Shown here in pieces: positions 4,160-29,417 of a stretch of 49,829 nt of DNA. The notes beneath the pieces were generated by a model. It did not search any database and was not told where the DNA came from. It saw nothing but the letters and a program-made list of their open reading frames with translations. Each line of letters opens with the position of its first letter. The stretch's first letter is position 1. The DNA lies in assembly GCA_023382175.1 (NCBI GenBank), contig JAMCQB010000061.1, forward strand, positions 1 through 49,829, read 5' to 3'. The DNA comes from Nitrospirota bacterium. Its GTDB lineage: Bacteria; Nitrospirota; Thermodesulfovibrionia; Thermodesulfovibrionales; UBA9159. The translations under genes and the position numbers were made by a program.

Positions 4160-5812
4160 TTAGTCCATTACCGCCCCTTTTCCTGCGGAAGTAACCATCC
4201 TGGCGTACCGTGAGAGATACCCCTTTGTTATCTTCGGTTTCGGGGGTTTCCACTGGGAAAGCCTCTTCTTAATCTCTTCGTCAGGAACCAGCAGCTCTAT
4301 CTTCCTCTTTGTGATATCGATCAGGATCCTGTCTCCATCCCTGATGACCGCAATGGGCCCGCCTTCCATGGCCTCAGGGGAGATATGGCCGATGCAGGGA
4401 CCCCTCGTGCCCCCTGAAAACCTGCCGTCAGTGATGAGGGCAACCGATTCGCTCAGCCCCATCCCTGCAATGGTTGCCGTAGTGGAGAGCATCTCCCTCA
4501 TGCCCGGACCTCCCTTCGGCCCTTCGTATCTGATGACCACAACATCCCCTGAACGGATATTTCCCGCGAGGATCGCCTTCATGCCTTTCTCTTCGGAATC
4601 ATACACCTTTGCCGTTCCCTCAAACCGCATCACATTCTGACTCACAGCAGACTGCTTCACCACAGCGCCGTCCGGAGCGATGTTTCCGCGGAGAATAGCG
4701 ATGCCGCCCTGTTTATGATAGGCCTTATTCAAAGGCCTGATCACATCTTCGTCGAAGACAATGGCAGAATCCGCAATCTCCAATACCCGCTTCCCGCTCA
4801 CGGTAATATTGTCCTTGAGGCCGTGCCTGAGCCTCTTCAGGACAGCAGGGATGCCGCCCGCATTATCAAGGTCTTCCATATAGTGCTGTCCGCCGGGAAT
4901 CATATTCGCGATATGGGGGGTCTTTTTGCTGATGGTATCGAAGGTCTCCAGAGGAAGGTCTATGCCGGTTTCGTGCGCGATCGCCGGAATATGAAGGGCG
5001 GTATTCGTAGAGCCGCCCAGGGCAAGGTCAACCATAATGGCGTTCTCGAAGGCCTTCTTCGTCATGATCTTCCTCGGTGTTATGTTCTTCCTGAGGAGCT
5101 CCACGACCCGTCTCCCGCTCTCAAAGGCTATCCTCCTCTTATTGGCGGAAACGGCAAGTTCCGTTGCACACTTCGGGAGGCTCATGCCGAGGGCCTCGGT
5201 CACGCACGCCATCGTGTTCGCCGTGTACATCCCCTGACAGGAACCCGCTCCCGGGCAGGCGCACATCTCAAGGGCCTCCATTTCTTCGTCCTTTATCAAT
5301 CCCTTCTTGTATTTCCCCACCGCCTCAAAGGTGTCGCTGGTAAGGTTGAGCCTCCTGTTTTTGTAATGGCCGGAGAGCATCGGGCCCGCGGTTATCACAA
5401 TGGACGGAATATTGATCCTCGCCGCGGCCATGAGCATGCCGGGAGTTATCTTGTCACAATTGGTGAGAAGGACCAGCCCGTCCAACTGATGGGCCTGGGC
5501 AACAGTCTCGACCATGTCAGCAATGAGTTCCCGGGAAGGCAGCGAGTAGTGCATGCCGGAATGGCCCATGGCGATGCCGTCGCAGATGCCGGGAATGCCG
5601 AAAAAGAACGGATATCCGCCGCCCGTATGGACGCCCTTTTCGATGAATCGCTCAAGATCCCGCATGCCGATGTGGCCGGGAATGATATCGGTAAAACTGG
5701 TTGCTACGCCGATGAACGGTTTGTTCATCTCTGTCTTCGGAATGCCGGTGGCGTATAACAACGCCCTGTGTGGAACCCGCTCTAGCCCCTTCTTGATCTT
5801 CGCGCTTCTCAC
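4160..5812 (-). CDS. ilvD: Dihydroxy-acid dehydratase
   Basis: The 550-residue Fe-S enzyme performs the third step of branched-chain amino acid synthesis. Cluster-related cysteines are C77 ([10 protein letters not shown]), C119 (NCDKITPG) and C192 ([11 protein letters not shown]). At the position where the E. coli type has PCN it has PGH, a variant I recall from archaeal and clostridial IlvD. The C-terminal swivel domain carries GRFSGGTRG. It starts with GTG, supported by an AAGGAGG site. It is upstream of ilvB-ilvN on the same strand. Confidence 0.95.
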
Positions 5813-5918
5813 CGCAATAGTACCTCCTTCATTAGAATGAACTAAAAGGTCAAGGTTAAGGTTAAGACATTAGAGCCTCAACCTCAGCCTTAACCTGTCA
5901 TTAACTTCCTCGTAGTTT

Positions 5919-6146
5919 TTAATTCGTGTGGCTTTTCCTGTACTCCCTGATAAACTCCGCCATCCTGTCTTTTTTGCTCAATTTAAGTTTCTGAAGCTTT
6001 TTCCGCTCCATCTCTTCGTCCGCCGAAAGATACACCTTCCTGTCCATCTCTGCCAGGAGCGACTTGAGGCTCTTGTGTTCTTCATCCAGCTTCTTGAATT
6101 CCTCGTTTTCCCTCCTGAGCAGCTCCTTGATCTCCTCGTCGTTCAA
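5919..6146 (-). CDS. DUF465 (YdcH-type) small coiled-coil protein
   Basis: The 75-residue, highly charged helical protein has the DUF465 pattern: FKKLDEEHKSLKSLLAEMD followed by a basic LKKLKLSKKDRM-like segment. Members are small cytoplasmic proteins of unknown function. The start is TTG at 6146 with AGGAGG six bases upstream. The gene follows hemG by 33 bases on the same strand, so it may be the last member of the haem operon. A repeat containing AAGGTTAAGGTTAAG, with an imperfect inverted partner, lies between it and ilvD. Confidence 0.75.
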   Translation of the reverse strand: MNDEEIKELLRRENEEFKKLDEEHKSLKSLLAEMDRKVYLSADEEMERKKLQKLKLSKKDRMAEFIREYRKSHTN

Positions 6147-6179
6147 TGGATCCTCCTTTCCTGCCAGAGGGTAAACCCC

Positions 6180-7559
6180 TCAGGCGCCCTTTGTTTTTGT
6201 TCCTGCCATTAATTCCCCTGCAAGCCTGTATGAATTCTCTATGCAGTCATTCACGCTGATACCCCGGTATGAGTTGCCCGCAAGAGAGAGCCCCTTGTAG
6301 CGGGCCAGCAGCCTCTCCAGAGTCTCAAGTCTTCCCTGATGCCCTATGGTGTATTGAGGAATCGCTTTCTCATGGACATAGACCCTTGCGAAATCAGGCT
6401 GTACCCTTATGCCCATAATATCTCCCAATTCAGCCGTAACGGTGCCGATGAGCCTATTCTCATCCTGCATTGCCGCCTGAGATGCCCGCGCCCCGCCGAG
6501 CATCGATCTCAGGAGAACATATCCCTCGGGCGCCCTGTTCGGAAAGATGCTGGAGTCCCACAACGTCCCAAGGATTCTCCTCCCTTCCCTGAAGGGCACA
6601 AGGAAACCGAAACCATCAAGACTGCGTCCGATCTTCTCCTTTTTGTAGCCGACGCAGACTACAGAAACCGGGGGATAGGGAATTTCCGAAAGGGTCCGGG
6701 AAAGAGAATGGTCGAAGTCCCTGAGTATCCCGGCCGTGGCATGCGCGGGCGACGCCATCACCACACAATCCGATTCCATGCTCGACCCGTCCTGAAGATG
6801 TACCGTATAGTGACCGCCGTTCTTGACCAATGACGTAACTTTGCTGCGAGGCATGACCCTTTCACCCAGGGAATCTCTGAGGGCGAGAATGAAGGTTTCC
6901 ATACCGTCAAAAAAGGAGGTTAATACCCCTCCGGGACCCGGCCCCGGGCCGGTCCTTCCCTCTTTTTTTGCCTTTATCTGGAGTCTGATCAACGCCCTGA
7001 TGAGGCTGCCGTATTCGGTCTCGAGCTGATTGATCCTGGGGAAACAACTTTTCAGACTCAAGGCCTCGGGATCTCCCGCGTAGATCCCTGATGCCATGGG
7101 GTCAATCAATTTTTCAAAGGCCTCTCTTCCAAGCCTCCTTCTTCCGAACTCGGCAAGGCTCTCGTCCGCCTTCGTGCCCCTGGGAGCAAACATCTCATAC
7201 ATTATCCTGAGACGGCCCCAAACACTCAACAGGTTCGACCTAAAAAAGGCAGGAGGCGATTCCGGAAGAGGATGCAGTTTCCCGCAGGAAAAGATAAACC
7301 GCTTCCTTGCTGCATCATTGCTTTTGATGGGTTTCAATGAAAGGTCAGCTGCAAGTTCAAGGGTCCTGGGCTTGTTGTTCAGAAAGCCGTTCACACCGCC
7401 TTCGCACAGGAATCCGTCCGCCCTGTCGGTCCATATCTTGCCTCCCAGCCGTTCCCCGGCCTCAAGCACGGCGATATCCAGAGACGGGTTCGCTTTCCGC
7501 AACAAGTACGCGAGGGAAAGTCCTGAGATCCCCCCTCCGACAATGACTATCCTGTCCAT
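6180..7559 (-). CDS. hemG: Oxygen-dependent-type protoporphyrinogen/coproporphyrinogen oxidase (HemY-like)
   Basis: The 459-residue FAD enzyme starts with a Rossmann dinucleotide site (VIVGGGISGLSLAYLL, 5-20, then VLEAGERLGGKIWT) and ends with the family's FAD-binding signature (LSLAGNSYRGISVNDCI). It oxidises a porphyrinogen to the porphyrin that ferrochelatase uses. Its first 13 bases overlap the end of hemH, so the two are translationally coupled. Whether the substrate is proto- or coproporphyrinogen cannot be decided from the gene alone. The nomenclature hemG/hemY varies. Confidence 0.9.
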   Translation of the reverse strand: MDRIVIVGGGISGLSLAYLLRKANPSLDIAVLEAGERLGGKIWTDRADGFLCEGGVNGFLNNKPRTLELAADLSLKPIKSNDAARKRFIFSCGKLHPLPESPPAFFRSNLLSVWGRLRIMYEMFAPRGTKADESLAEFGRRRLGREAFEKLIDPMASGIYAGDPEALSLKSCFPRINQLETEYGSLIRALIRLQIKAKKEGRTGPGPGPGGVLTSFFDGMETFILALRDSLGERVMPRSKVTSLVKNGGHYTVHLQDGSSMESDCVVMASPAHATAGILRDFDHSLSRTLSEIPYPPVSVVCVGYKKEKIGRSLDGFGFLVPFREGRRILGTLWDSSIFPNRAPEGYVLLRSMLGGARASQAAMQDENRLIGTVTAELGDIMGIRVQPDFARVYVHEKAIPQYTIGHQGRLETLERLLARYKGLSLAGNSYRGISVNDCIENSYRLAGELMAGTKTKGA

Positions 7560-25387: not shown

Positions 25388-26005
25388 ATGAAACCCAGGG
25401 TCAAGGAAATCATAAAAACATTGCATGAGGCCGGCAATGACGCAGAAGATTGTTTGTCTTTATTGCAGACTTCATTCCTTTATCATTCCCTGCAGCACCT
25501 GCATGAATGCCGGAAAAAGATTCACCACTTCAGGGACATCGAACCTCAGCTTACCCGTGAGATCGCTGAACTGGCGAGGGAGCATACCGATGCGAAGCCG
25601 TATGTATCCGTCCCTGTCCATCTCGCGAGGATAGGAGAATGCACGGAGAAACTGGGCGGGTGTATCGAGAAGATGGTGAAGGAACGCGTCCTTTTCAGCG
25701 ACAGGGCCATTGAGGAGGTCACCTATCTCCTCCAGAGGCTCATGGATATCCTGAGGCCGATGTCGGACATCATCCTTGCCAGGAACACCATCCTGGCGAA
25801 ATACGTGAACGAATCCGAGGCAGGGGTTGTGAGAAGGGCGCTGGAATATGCTACACTGCATGAAGAGCGCCTGATCGAAGGGCTCTGCATCCCTTTTGCA
25901 TCATCGCTCTATATCAACATGCTGGACGAGATAAAGAATATCGGCTGGCATGCAAAGGAGATAGCCACAAAGCTTACCGCTGACATGGCAGTGGAAGTGC
26001 AATAA
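25388..26005 (+). CDS. PhoU-like helical protein
   Basis: The 205-residue all-helical protein has two similar helical-bundle halves with spaced acidic and histidine residues. VPVHLARIGECTEKLGGCIE recalls the PhoU metal-binding helix (DLERIGDLAVNI). PhoU-domain proteins modulate phosphate transport or act as transporter accessories, but no phosphate gene is adjacent. GGAAGGAGG lies before the ATG. Family assignment is by pattern only. Confidence 0.6.
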   Translation: MKPRVKEIIKTLHEAGNDAEDCLSLLQTSFLYHSLQHLHECRKKIHHFRDIEPQLTREIAELAREHTDAKPYVSVPVHLARIGECTEKLGGCIEKMVKERVLFSDRAIEEVTYLLQRLMDILRPMSDIILARNTILAKYVNESEAGVVRRALEYATLHEERLIEGLCIPFASSLYINMLDEIKNIGWHAKEIATKLTADMAVEVQ

Positions 26006-26211: not shown

Positions 26212-27270
26212 ATGATCATGTTGTCCGCCTTTCCCAAAAAAAAGGAGTTGAGAATCAGGCAAACTATTCTCAGGGGTGTCTACGAAGACAACCTAAGAAT
26301 CATCGGGAAAGGTTCTGCCGTCCTTTCAAACAGACCGTCCTTCTCCCTCAAGAAGATTTCTCTGTTCATTTCCACGGTATTGCTCGCTCTCCTGGGATAT
26401 GGGAATTACTCGGATCTTTCATTGTCCCCGGACAAACAGATCGCCCCGCTAAGTATCGCGGCACAGCAGCTTTCTCCTTTACCCGCTGAAACATCCGTTC
26501 ATCCATCAGAGTACGCCGCCTTTTTTGGCGGTCAGGCGCATCTGAAGCGGGTGTTCGGGCTGGCGGTAAAGACGATCATGATCGACCCGGGACATGGAGG
26601 CGCTGACTCCGGAACCGTAGGAAAGCTGGGGACCCGGGAAAAGGATATTACCCTGGATATTGCGAAACGGCTCAAGGAAAGACTGAAGAAGCAGGGATAT
26701 TCCAATGTCCTTCTGACCCGTGAAGAGGACATAACTCTTCCCCTTAACAAAAGGGTAGAACTTGCCAATTCAGGCAGGGCAGATCTTTTCATCTCCATAC
26801 ATCTCAATTACCTCCCTTCCAAACCGATAAATATTATCGAGACCTACTATTTTGGTCCCTCTTCAGACGCCAAAACACTGAAGCTCGCAGAGCAGGAAAA
26901 TGCAGGCTCTCACTATGGACTGAGCGACTTCAAGGAGATAATCGAGAAGATCGGTGAGACAGTGAAGCTCCAGGAATCCAGGGAGCTCGCAGGCTCCATC
27001 CAGCAACATCTTTTCGTAAACAGCCTGAAGCAGAACGGGAATGTTCAGGACTTCGGCGTAAAAAGGGCTCCCTTTGTTGTCCTGCTGGGAGTGAATGTGC
27101 CCGCTGTCCTTGCAGAGGTCTCTTGCCTCAGCAACCGGGAGGAAGAGGTCGAACTCAACACGGAGAGCCACAGGGAAAATATCGCACGGTATCTTGAGGC
27201 CGGCATCCTACATTACTTAAGTAAAGGAGAGGTACGCTATGAAGCAAAAAGACTCGAAGAGGGAAGATAA
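26212..27270 (+). CDS. Membrane-anchored N-acetylmuramoyl-L-alanine amidase (Amidase_3)
   Basis: The 352-residue protein has a basic cytoplasmic head of about 46 residues, one membrane anchor (about 47-65), a spacer and an Amidase_3 catalytic domain. Zinc ligands are H128 (IDPGHGG), E143 and H197 (ISIHLNY); the catalytic E302 (LAEVSCLSN) is present. It would cut the amide bond between glycan and stem peptide, making denuded glycan. It lacks an AMIN domain. The actin gene starts inside its last 32 bases, so the two products are made together. Confidence 0.9.
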   Translation: MIMLSAFPKKKELRIRQTILRGVYEDNLRIIGKGSAVLSNRPSFSLKKISLFISTVLLALLGYGNYSDLSLSPDKQIAPLSIAAQQLSPLPAETSVHPSEYAAFFGGQAHLKRVFGLAVKTIMIDPGHGGADSGTVGKLGTREKDITLDIAKRLKERLKKQGYSNVLLTREEDITLPLNKRVELANSGRADLFISIHLNYLPSKPINIIETYYFGPSSDAKTLKLAEQENAGSHYGLSDFKEIIEKIGETVKLQESRELAGSIQQHLFVNSLKQNGNVQDFGVKRAPFVVLLGVNVPAVLAEVSCLSNREEEVELNTESHRENIARYLEAGILHYLSKGEVRYEAKRLEEGR

Positions 27271-28267
27271 TACAGTCTTCGTCGGCATTGACCTCGGAAC
27301 CTCGAGGAGTTCTATCTCTGCAAGCAACAACACAAGGGAATGGATCGAGAGCTATGTGGGCTGGCCCAAGGATTTCATTGCGCTTCAGGTGGTGGGAAAG
27401 CCCGTCCTCTTTGGCGCCGAGGCCCTGAAAAACAGGCTCTCCCTCGACCTCTGCAGGCCTCTGGAACATGGGGTGATAAAGGAGGGCATCGAAAGAAGTG
27501 AAGAAGCGGTGAAGGAGATCATCAAATATCTCATCGAACTCGCAAAACCAGAGCCTGATCAGAAAATCCATGCGGTAGTGGGGGTCCCTGCAGATACCCT
27601 GAAAGTGAACAAGCTTGCCATCAGAAAGGCAGTATCTGAATTTGTGCATTCGTTAATGGTGGTATCGGAACCATTTGCGGTAGCATACGGGATGGATCTG
27701 CTGAACAACTCCCTCGTGATCGACATCGGTGCGGGGACAACAGATTTCTGCATCATGCACGGCACCATTCCCTCAGAGGAGGACCAGAAAACGATCCTCG
27801 CAGCCGGTGATTACATTGATGAACAGCTCTACAGTTATCTCACCGAAAGGTACCCCAATGCGAAGTTCAACAAAAACATGGTGCGTCAGTTCAAAGAGCA
27901 GCACAGTTTTGTGAGAGAGGTCCCCGGCGAAGTCCGCGTTGAAATCCCGGTGGACGGGAAGCCTGTAATGCACGATATCACCAACGAGATACGCCGTGCC
28001 TGTGAAAGCATTCTCCCTGCAATCGTGGAGACGACCACGGAGATGATCGCGCGCTTTGATCCTGAATTTCAGGTAAAGATAAAGAACAACATTGTTCTTG
28101 CAGGCGGCGGCAGCCTCATCAAGGGGATACGTGAATATCTTCAGGATGCGCTGAAGGAGTATGGTTCCTGCAGGGTGACGTGCGTGGAAGATCCCCTCTT
28201 TGCAGGTTCAAACGGCGCGCTCAAGCTTGCAGAGGATATGCCTGCAAAATACTGGGAGACTTTATAA
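27239..28267 (+). CDS. MamK-family bacterial actin
   Basis: The 342-residue protein follows MamK almost end to end. It has phosphate-1 VGIDLGTSRSS (15-25), VGWPKDFIALQVVGKPV, a conserved GVPA, VVSEPFAVAYGMD with the glutamate E144 needed for ATP hydrolysis in MamK, phosphate-2 VIDIGAGTTDFCI (160-172), and adenosine NIVLAGGGSLIKGI (284-297). The end, KLAEDMPAKYWETL, also matches the MamK tail from memory. MamK filaments position magnetosomes; here no magnetosome gene is nearby, and the partners are an amidase and a SPOR protein. AAGGAGAGG precedes its ATG. Confidence 0.9.
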   Translation: MKQKDSKREDNTVFVGIDLGTSRSSISASNNTREWIESYVGWPKDFIALQVVGKPVLFGAEALKNRLSLDLCRPLEHGVIKEGIERSEEAVKEIIKYLIELAKPEPDQKIHAVVGVPADTLKVNKLAIRKAVSEFVHSLMVVSEPFAVAYGMDLLNNSLVIDIGAGTTDFCIMHGTIPSEEDQKTILAAGDYIDEQLYSYLTERYPNAKFNKNMVRQFKEQHSFVREVPGEVRVEIPVDGKPVMHDITNEIRRACESILPAIVETTTEMIARFDPEFQVKIKNNIVLAGGGSLIKGIREYLQDALKEYGSCRVTCVEDPLFAGSNGALKLAEDMPAKYWETL

Positions 28268-28271
28268 TCCC

Positions 28272-29417
28272 ATGGCAAACAAAACGATACTGCTCATCGA
28301 TTCTACTTCTGAAACTGCTCAGGATATCGCGGCGACCCTTGAATCCGAAGATTATCTTGTCTTCATGTCCTCCACTGCAGAGTTTGCGGTTGCCATGGCC
28401 AGGAAAGTGAAGCCGGCGCTCATATTGGTTAACCCCGCAATGGCCGGGGCGAGCGGCCTGGATATCTGCATAAAGCTTCACGAAATAGACGAGCTCAGCA
28501 GCGTGCCGATCATTGCCCTCGCCTCCTTCGAGGGAGAGATGGACCCGCGTTATCGTTCTGAATACGGCATTGTGGACCTGCTCAGGAAACCCTTTACCCA
28601 CAAAGAACTTATAGCAAAGATTGCCGGTGCCCTTTCAGCGGGAGGGGAAGATGTGACGCCTGAGCCCTGGAAGGAGGCGACGGGCCAAGAGGAGATTCCC
28701 GGGGAGAAGGCGGGCAGGTCTGACAGGATCGTTGTGAGACTGAAGGAGAAGAAAGAAGAAAAAGAAACCGAAAAAGTACAGATTCCGGAAGAAGCTGCAC
28801 CCTCAGGCCAGCCCCTGGAGACCGAGGAAATCACGGAGAGAGAAGGTGAAAGGGCATTCGTGGCGAAGAAGCCCATGAGAAGGCGGAGAAGCTCAGGAAG
28901 CAAGTTGTCTCTTCCGGTTATTGTCGCCGCCCTTCTTATCATACTGGGCGCAGCCGGGGTGATGGTCTATAAAATGGGCCTGATCCCGGGTACGGAAGTG
29001 AAGAAAGCGGTCATGGTTAAACCTCCCCAGCCCGCTCAAGAGCAGCCTGTTCAGGAACCTCCTGCACCGGAACAAAAACCTCAGCAGGAAGTTATACAGG
29101 CTAAGCCCCCTGCAGCAGTGTCTCCTCCTGCAGCAATGTCTTCCCCTCCCCCTGTGCAATTGCCGGAGAAAAAACCGGCAGGCAAGGCGCTTTATTCTGT
29201 TCAGATCGGCGCATTCAAGAATGAGAAGAATGCCGAGGCCCTGGCAAAACAGTATAAAGAGAAGGGGTATGACGCCTTTGTGCAGACCATTCCAAAGGAC
29301 AAAGAAATGCTCCACAGGGTTTTGATAGGAATGTTTCAAGACAGGAAAGAGGCCGGGAAACTGGCTGAAGACATCCGGAATAAGGAAAACGTTCAGGCGC
29401 TTGTCATGGGGGACTAA
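28272..29417 (+). CDS. Degenerate receiver - transmembrane - SPOR domain protein
   Basis: From the ATG at 28272, 4 bases after the actin stop, the protein is 381 residues. It has a receiver-like domain (5-120) whose phospho-acceptor is asparagine (N54, ALILVNPAMAG) although K106-P107 is kept. A charged linker (125-205), an RRRR stop and one helix (212-232) follow, then a proline/glutamine-rich periplasmic stalk (250-303) and a SPOR domain (305-379, YSVQIGAFKNEKNAEALAKQY). SPOR domains bind peptidoglycan stripped of stem peptides. It could link the cytoplasmic actin to amidase-treated wall. Confidence 0.9.
   Translation: MANKTILLIDSTSETAQDIAATLESEDYLVFMSSTAEFAVAMARKVKPALILVNPAMAGASGLDICIKLHEIDELSSVPIIALASFEGEMDPRYRSEYGIVDLLRKPFTHKELIAKIAGALSAGGEDVTPEPWKEATGQEEIPGEKAGRSDRIVVRLKEKKEEKETEKVQIPEEAAPSGQPLETEEITEREGERAFVAKKPMRRRRSSGSKLSLPVIVAALLIILGAAGVMVYKMGLIPGTEVKKAVMVKPPQPAQEQPVQEPPAPEQKPQQEVIQAKPPAAVSPPAAMSSPPPVQLPEKKPAGKALYSVQIGAFKNEKNAEALAKQYKEKGYDAFVQTIPKDKEMLHRVLIGMFQDRKEAGKLAEDIRNKENVQALVMGD

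Follow-up and report, generated by a model that had tools for sequence, protein, structure and literature searches.

The amidase-actin locus

The window analysed here is a stretch of 49,829 nucleotides from a Nitrospirota genome (GCA_023382175.1, contig JAMCQB010000061.1; the assembly comprises 2.85 Mb in 171 contigs and is 86.8% complete), and the system in question is a gene pair encoding a membrane-anchored peptidoglycan amidase and an actin of the MamK family. A preliminary description had pointed to three closely packed genes, and all of these open reading frames were recovered as claimed on the forward (+) strand, together with the 32-base overlap and the 4-base gap between them. The Amidase_3 gene (26212..27270, 352 amino acids) overlaps the actin gene (27239..28267, 342 amino acids) at 27239..27270. 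The gap is followed by a gene for a protein with a pseudo-receiver, a transmembrane segment, a proline-rich linker, and a SPOR domain (28272..29417). Translation of the amidase probably starts at 26218, the third codon, and not at 26212, because the start is conserved there in the homologues.

Amidase_3 (PF01520, 151 bits) was the sole Pfam family matched by the first protein, and no AMIN targeting domain was found in it by the Pfam scan. About 45 N-terminal residues precede the transmembrane helix (26347..26409, +), which the AlphaFold model places at residues 46-62, with the basic pair K47/K48 on the cytoplasmic side. The periplasmic catalytic domain lies at 26569..27222 (+). Its zinc ligands H128, E143, and H197, previously described as intact, and the catalytic E302 show no variation in the alignment of 81 homologues. 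The closest structures in a structure search were AmiC (4bin), AmiB of Bartonella (3ne8), and AmiA (8c2o), and the alignment to them covers their inhibitory-helix region, which corresponds to approximately residues 230-250 of the window amidase. The fold of the model is well defined (mean predicted local distance difference test score, pLDDT, of 81). The invariant catalytic residues together with the aligned AmiC-type inhibitory-helix region suggest that the amidase is probably a regulated enzyme. The window genome contains two further Amidase_3 genes, both without the tail described below.

The third protein matched both the receiver domain (PF00072, 46 bits) and the SPOR domain (PF05036, 61 bits against a Pfam cut-off of 21). 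The acceptor Asp of the receiver is replaced by Asn in the window protein, and 28 of 29 homologues have lost it, which bears out the label of pseudo-receiver. Among 36 distinct Nitrospirota loci in which enough sequence follows the actin gene, 29 have this gene next and 7 do not. Outside Nitrospirota it is essentially absent, and the downstream genes differ. A three-gene machine as a conserved unit is thus ruled out, and the SPOR protein, though common in Nitrospirota, lies outside the core. SPOR domains bind to glycan that amidases have denuded (PMC6895207), so the idea that one protein makes the ligand and the other binds it holds in Nitrospirota, only as an addition to the two-gene core. 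Upstream of the amidase gene, a 205-amino-acid protein with no significant Pfam or NCBIfam match is encoded at 25388-26005 (+). A homologue of it precedes the block in G005 (L046), a genome of the same family, and in none of the other relatives of the order that were examined.

A distinct actin clade inherited with the amidase

The actin reached 431 bits with the NCBIfam MamK model (NF040964, curated cut-off 400) and only 100 bits with MreB_Mbl, so that its earlier assignment to the MamK family stands. Among PDB entries it matched MamK of Magnetospirillum (5jyg) with 317 bits, BeeR (8r2n) with 157 bits, and MreB with 64 bits. Actins of the MamK family occur in 23 of the 61 genomes of the order and fall into two classes by their score against the window actin. 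The first class (308-334 bits) takes in the magnetosome copies, and in the second (511-694 bits) the amidase gene is always directly upstream. In a tree of 73 actins, built like our other actin trees by a quick method, the 46 amidase-linked actins occupy one side of a branch with full support (Shimodaira-Hasegawa-like approximate likelihood ratio test, SH-aLRT, 100), and a grouping of the window actin with magnetosome MamK was rejected (approximately unbiased, AU, test, p=3.8e-5).

It could be argued that the actin is a relic of a magnetosome MamK or part of an island lying beyond the window, since it passes the cut-off of the NCBI MamK subfamily. Besides the separate clade and the rejected grouping, the gene content speaks against this: neither MamM nor MamP was found over the cut-off in the window genome, at its 86.8% completeness, and no MamM over the cut-off in 22 linked-actin carriers from other phyla. 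The true magnetosome MamKs of the phylum, on the other hand, adjoin MamM, MamP, and MamQ. As a positive control, the magnetosome-type actin of L028 adjoins MamM, a MamP match, and a MamQ-like gene, and such genes stand beside most magnetosome-type actins. None of them was found beside the linked actins, except for one weak generic CDF match in L106. A relic or a hidden island is therefore very improbable. A magnetosome origin of the linked actin is ruled out by tree and gene content, and for the linked clade the magnetosome reading is already refuted, in agreement with the preliminary description, which had supposed that this actin does not serve magnetosomes.

Nor does the linked actin replace MreB. 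A true MreB (345-501 bits to MreB_Mbl, compared with 100 bits for the linked actin) was present in all 60 relatives, carriers included, so that carriers possess the linked actin besides MreB. No true MreB was found in the window's own 86.8% complete assembly, which is probably an assembly gap. Three residues located within 12 positions of each other, W35, W42, and F46 (27341..27376, +), are the only ones that never vary in the linked clade and hardly occur in other MamKs. They are candidates for a docking site of a client or for an altered filament contact.

Several other actins of this kind were met during the searches. Tandem pairs of MamK-like actins without an adjacent amidase occur in Desulfobacterota (L185 in G563, L186 in G719, L189 in G613, L170 in G658, and L192 in G628), with no magnetosome markers near those of L185, L186, and L189, and in the tree they branch separately, close to AMB-1 MamK. 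The 6.0 Mb genome G058 contains two magnetosome-clade actins (L034 and L035) with no MamM, MamP, or MamQ within about 9 kb, and a receiver/histidine kinase is encoded just upstream of one of them. The actins of a further MamK-family branch (L190 in G473 and L191 in G422, 409-435 bits) have uncharacterised proteins as neighbours and neither an amidase nor magnetosome markers close by.

The conservation of the block in relatives, which the preliminary description had proposed as a check, was found at every level of the search. The block is present in 16 of the 61 genomes of the order. When 84,980 species genomes were scanned with the linked actins and the best 80 of 146 loci were kept, the amidase gene was directly upstream on the same strand in 80 of these 80. 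They belong to Nitrospirota, Desulfobacterota (Desulfobulbaceae, Desulfosarcina cetonica, strain NaphS2, and Desulfuromonadales), Acidobacteriota (Aminicenantes and another lineage), Gammaproteobacteria, Alphaproteobacteria (one Defluviicoccus), and a Rokubacteria bin. An overlap between the two genes recurs in 79 of 82 homologous loci and usually measures 32 bases, as in the window, so the pairing is not due to chance. The pairwise distances of amidases and actins were strongly correlated over 83 loci (Mantel r=0.93, the maximum of 2000 permutations being 0.12). Neighbours beyond the pair vary between phyla, and no third gene is common to all.

By comparing whole genomes, the same pairing was obtained. 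Of 396 Nitrospirota genomes, 54 carry a match to the MamK model; 35 of these have a linked actin and 19 a magnetosome-type one. The model of the tailed amidase matched the same 35 genomes (443-609 bits) and none of the 19 with magnetosome-type MamK, so that neither gene occurs alone. The next-best amidase in this phylum scored 251 bits, aligned from about position 90-100 of the model, and had no tail. Of 395 Desulfobacterota genomes, 3 have the tailed amidase, and these 3 are also the ones with the linked actin, one copy of which is cut off at a contig end; no tailed amidase was found in the 13 other genomes with MamK-like actins. Altogether, both genes occur in 38 of the 791 genomes of the two phyla, which were sampled evenly per phylum and are not phylogenetically independent, either gene alone occurs in 0, and 32 genomes with other MamKs have no such amidase. 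The core is thus a two-gene amidase-actin pair. From the set of three genes originally envisaged, the amidase and the actin proved universal and the SPOR gene did not. The linked actins form a distinct clade of the MamK family, apart from magnetosome MamK and inherited with a bitopic amidase as an overlapping pair. Moreover, as 35 of the 54 MamK-positive Nitrospirota genomes carry the linked actin, an annotation as MamK family alone is no sign of magnetosomes, which is relevant to any survey that uses MamK to predict magnetotaxis.

In some carriers the pair seems to have been acquired by transfer, although mis-binning may also play a part: their actins are 80% (a bin named Syntrophaceae) and 74% (the Rokubacteria bin) identical to that of the window. 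In the complete chromosome of Defluviicoccus sp. SSA4 (L119, approximately 5532-6802), the amidase tail and the catalytic part lie in two frames and the actin is intact. This was the only broken amidase seen; the locus L056 is cut by a contig end.

The cytoplasmic tail of the amidase and its proposed role

The residues before the transmembrane helix, which the preliminary description had overlooked, contain a conserved element of 14 residues. This tail motif (residues 16-29, RQTILRGVYEDNLR, 26257..26298, +) has the form [KR]xxIL[RK]GVYE[DE]NL[RK] in the 81 homologues, and Asn27 is present in 81 of 81. The tail is most likely cytoplasmic according to the positive-inside rule, because basic residues are conserved in the alignment directly before the transmembrane helix. 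The information content of the motif (2.88 bits per column) is close to that of the catalytic domain (2.91), and the values elsewhere are 0.87 and 1.10 in the flanking tail, 1.44 in the transmembrane segment, and 1.23 in the periplasmic linker. The model predicts a helix at residues 8-30 of the tail, and the conservation of the motif is periodic at 100 degrees, as in a helix (permutation p=0.009). A WH2-like reading, in which a hydrophobic helix is followed by L[KR], was set aside on account of the different spacing.

A search with the tail only was performed in the 61 genomes of the order. It gave matches with E values from 1e-19 to 1e-8 in 16 genomes, with one copy in each and always in the amidase; the genomes of the order that carry the linked actin are precisely these 16. 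No other protein in the 61 genomes bears the motif (best non-amidase match E=0.014). The best reading is that the motif, as a putative docking helix, attaches the amidase to the linked actin, because this cytoplasmic element is under constraint of the same grade as the enzyme, is limited to one protein, and is present exactly where one actin is. Judged from the sequences, the amidase tail and not the SPOR protein would be the strongest link between actin and wall.

We hypothesize that the pair is an actin-directed peptidoglycan-amidase module in which the tail docks to the filament and so places wall cleavage, and we consider this quite likely. The linked actin would polymerise on ATP, as MamK does, and the tail motif would dock as a short helix onto the filament. 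The docked enzyme would therefore be concentrated along the filament or at its end, across the membrane, where it could strip stem peptides from peptidoglycan locally, and the AmiC-like inhibitory region would keep it off elsewhere. Most Nitrospirota carriers encode a further bitopic protein, whose SPOR domain may bind the denuded glycans and whose non-phosphorylatable cytoplasmic receiver could label the site or keep it in place. Most probably the module would remodel the wall locally, acting alongside MreB in cell shape or in septum formation and cell separation, although shape, septum position, cell separation, and the opening of the wall for another complex are all compatible with the sequence. 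With slightly less confidence, we regard the linked actins as a widespread, undescribed actin class with a dedicated amidase client recruited by a short linear actin-binding motif, which would be a direct, one-step link from filament to wall cleavage across several phyla.

Some observations weigh against this hypothesis. The motif is no classic amphipathic helix, since its hydrophobic moment does not exceed that of shuffled sequence (0.27 vs 0.28). It could also bind a different partner, or it could serve translation or targeting of the membrane segment. The inhibitory-helix region is represented in the model by a short helix (residues 237-246) of low confidence. Moreover, the distribution is patchy (35 of 396 Nitrospirota), so the module is dispensable for basic growth, and the carriers are almost all uncultured and known as metagenome-assembled genomes.

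Amidases serve other machines by opening peptidoglycan, and the pair could accordingly be linked without direct binding: the actin would position, for example, an envelope complex, the amidase would open the wall for it, and the tail would bind some other factor. Against this, no third gene is common across phyla, the motif coincides exactly with the actin, and the pair is co-inherited; we consider this explanation unlikely, but worth keeping in mind. Conserved N-terminal extensions before the signal segment are also known on some exported proteins, so the tail may belong to a lengthened signal peptide that delays or guides export, in which case the amidase would be released to the periplasm and the tail would have no cytoskeletal partner. 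Extensions of this kind are found on many exported proteins of a cell, whereas the motif is limited to a single protein in each genome and is present exactly when the actin is, and the two other amidases of the genome have no tail, which makes this explanation improbable. Finally, division and shape operons can contain both amidases and actins, and the two genes might share an operon merely for co-regulation, for example in a division gene cluster. As the pair remains adjacent in several phyla amid unrelated surroundings and is never split in 791 genomes, mere neighbourhood can hardly account for it. Docking of the amidase tail to the linked actin thus remains the reading that we prefer.

Comparison with known systems

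The linked actin shares with magnetosome MamK the NF040964 family, the conserved ATPase motifs, and a similar length. It differs in its separate clade, the absence of magnetosome genes, the obligate amidase partner, and the W35/W42/F46 signature. Mad28 is likewise a second actin of Nitrospirota and Desulfobacterota. However, Mad28 adjoins magnetosome genes, and the Asp of its phosphate-2 motif is replaced by Ser (PMC10653835), whereas D162 is invariant in the linked actin. Bbp, an actin of giant bacteria including Ca. Electrothrix gigas, is encoded in an operon with a hypothetical and a Kelch protein (PMC10580974). Like the linked actin, it is a non-magnetosome actin with a MamK-like fold from Desulfobacterota and Gammaproteobacteria, but the neighbours of the linked actin are an amidase and, in Nitrospirota, a SPOR protein, and no amidase is mentioned in the description of Bbp.

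The window amidase has the catalytic fold and zinc ligands of E. coli AmiC and AmiA and of Bartonella AmiB, and a putative counterpart of their inhibitory-helix region. Those enzymes are exported without a cytoplasmic tail, and AmiC is targeted via an AMIN domain, whereas the window amidase has a tail and no AMIN domain. In outline, the E. coli divisome (FtsA, FtsEX-EnvC-amidase, and FtsN) is alike, since it couples an actin homologue on the inner side of the membrane to the activation of septal amidases and to a bitopic SPOR protein (PMC7343993, PMC6895207). The coupling is nevertheless indirect, as FtsA is linked to the amidases via FtsEX and EnvC (PMC7343993), the amidases have no cytoplasmic tail, and FtsA belongs to another actin subfamily. 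In a literature search of open-access papers, no paper joining MamK and a wall amidase was found.

A close precedent in arrangement is the bactofilin BacA with the M23 hydrolase LmdC in Hyphomonas neptunium and Rhodospirillum rubrum, an overlapping two-gene operon for a polymer and a bitopic hydrolase that is conserved across phyla (PMC10945521). The bactofilin recruits LmdC via the short cytoplasmic N-terminal region of the latter, which resembles the proposed role of the amidase tail (PMC10945521). In the window module, too, a conserved cytoplasmic N-terminal element is located on a transmembrane-anchored hydrolase encoded beside a presumably polymer-forming protein. The components are different: a nucleotide-free bactofilin, an endopeptidase, and a beta-hairpin dock in BacA-LmdC, and an ATPase actin, an amidase, and a helical motif here. 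Binding was shown for BacA-LmdC, and for the amidase tail and the actin we infer it. The known routes from a filament to wall hydrolysis are thus either indirect (FtsA via FtsEX and EnvC) or based on a bactofilin (LmdC), and the module described here would add one built on an actin, a two-gene system whose enzyme is defined and whose motif of 14 residues can be tested as a peptide.

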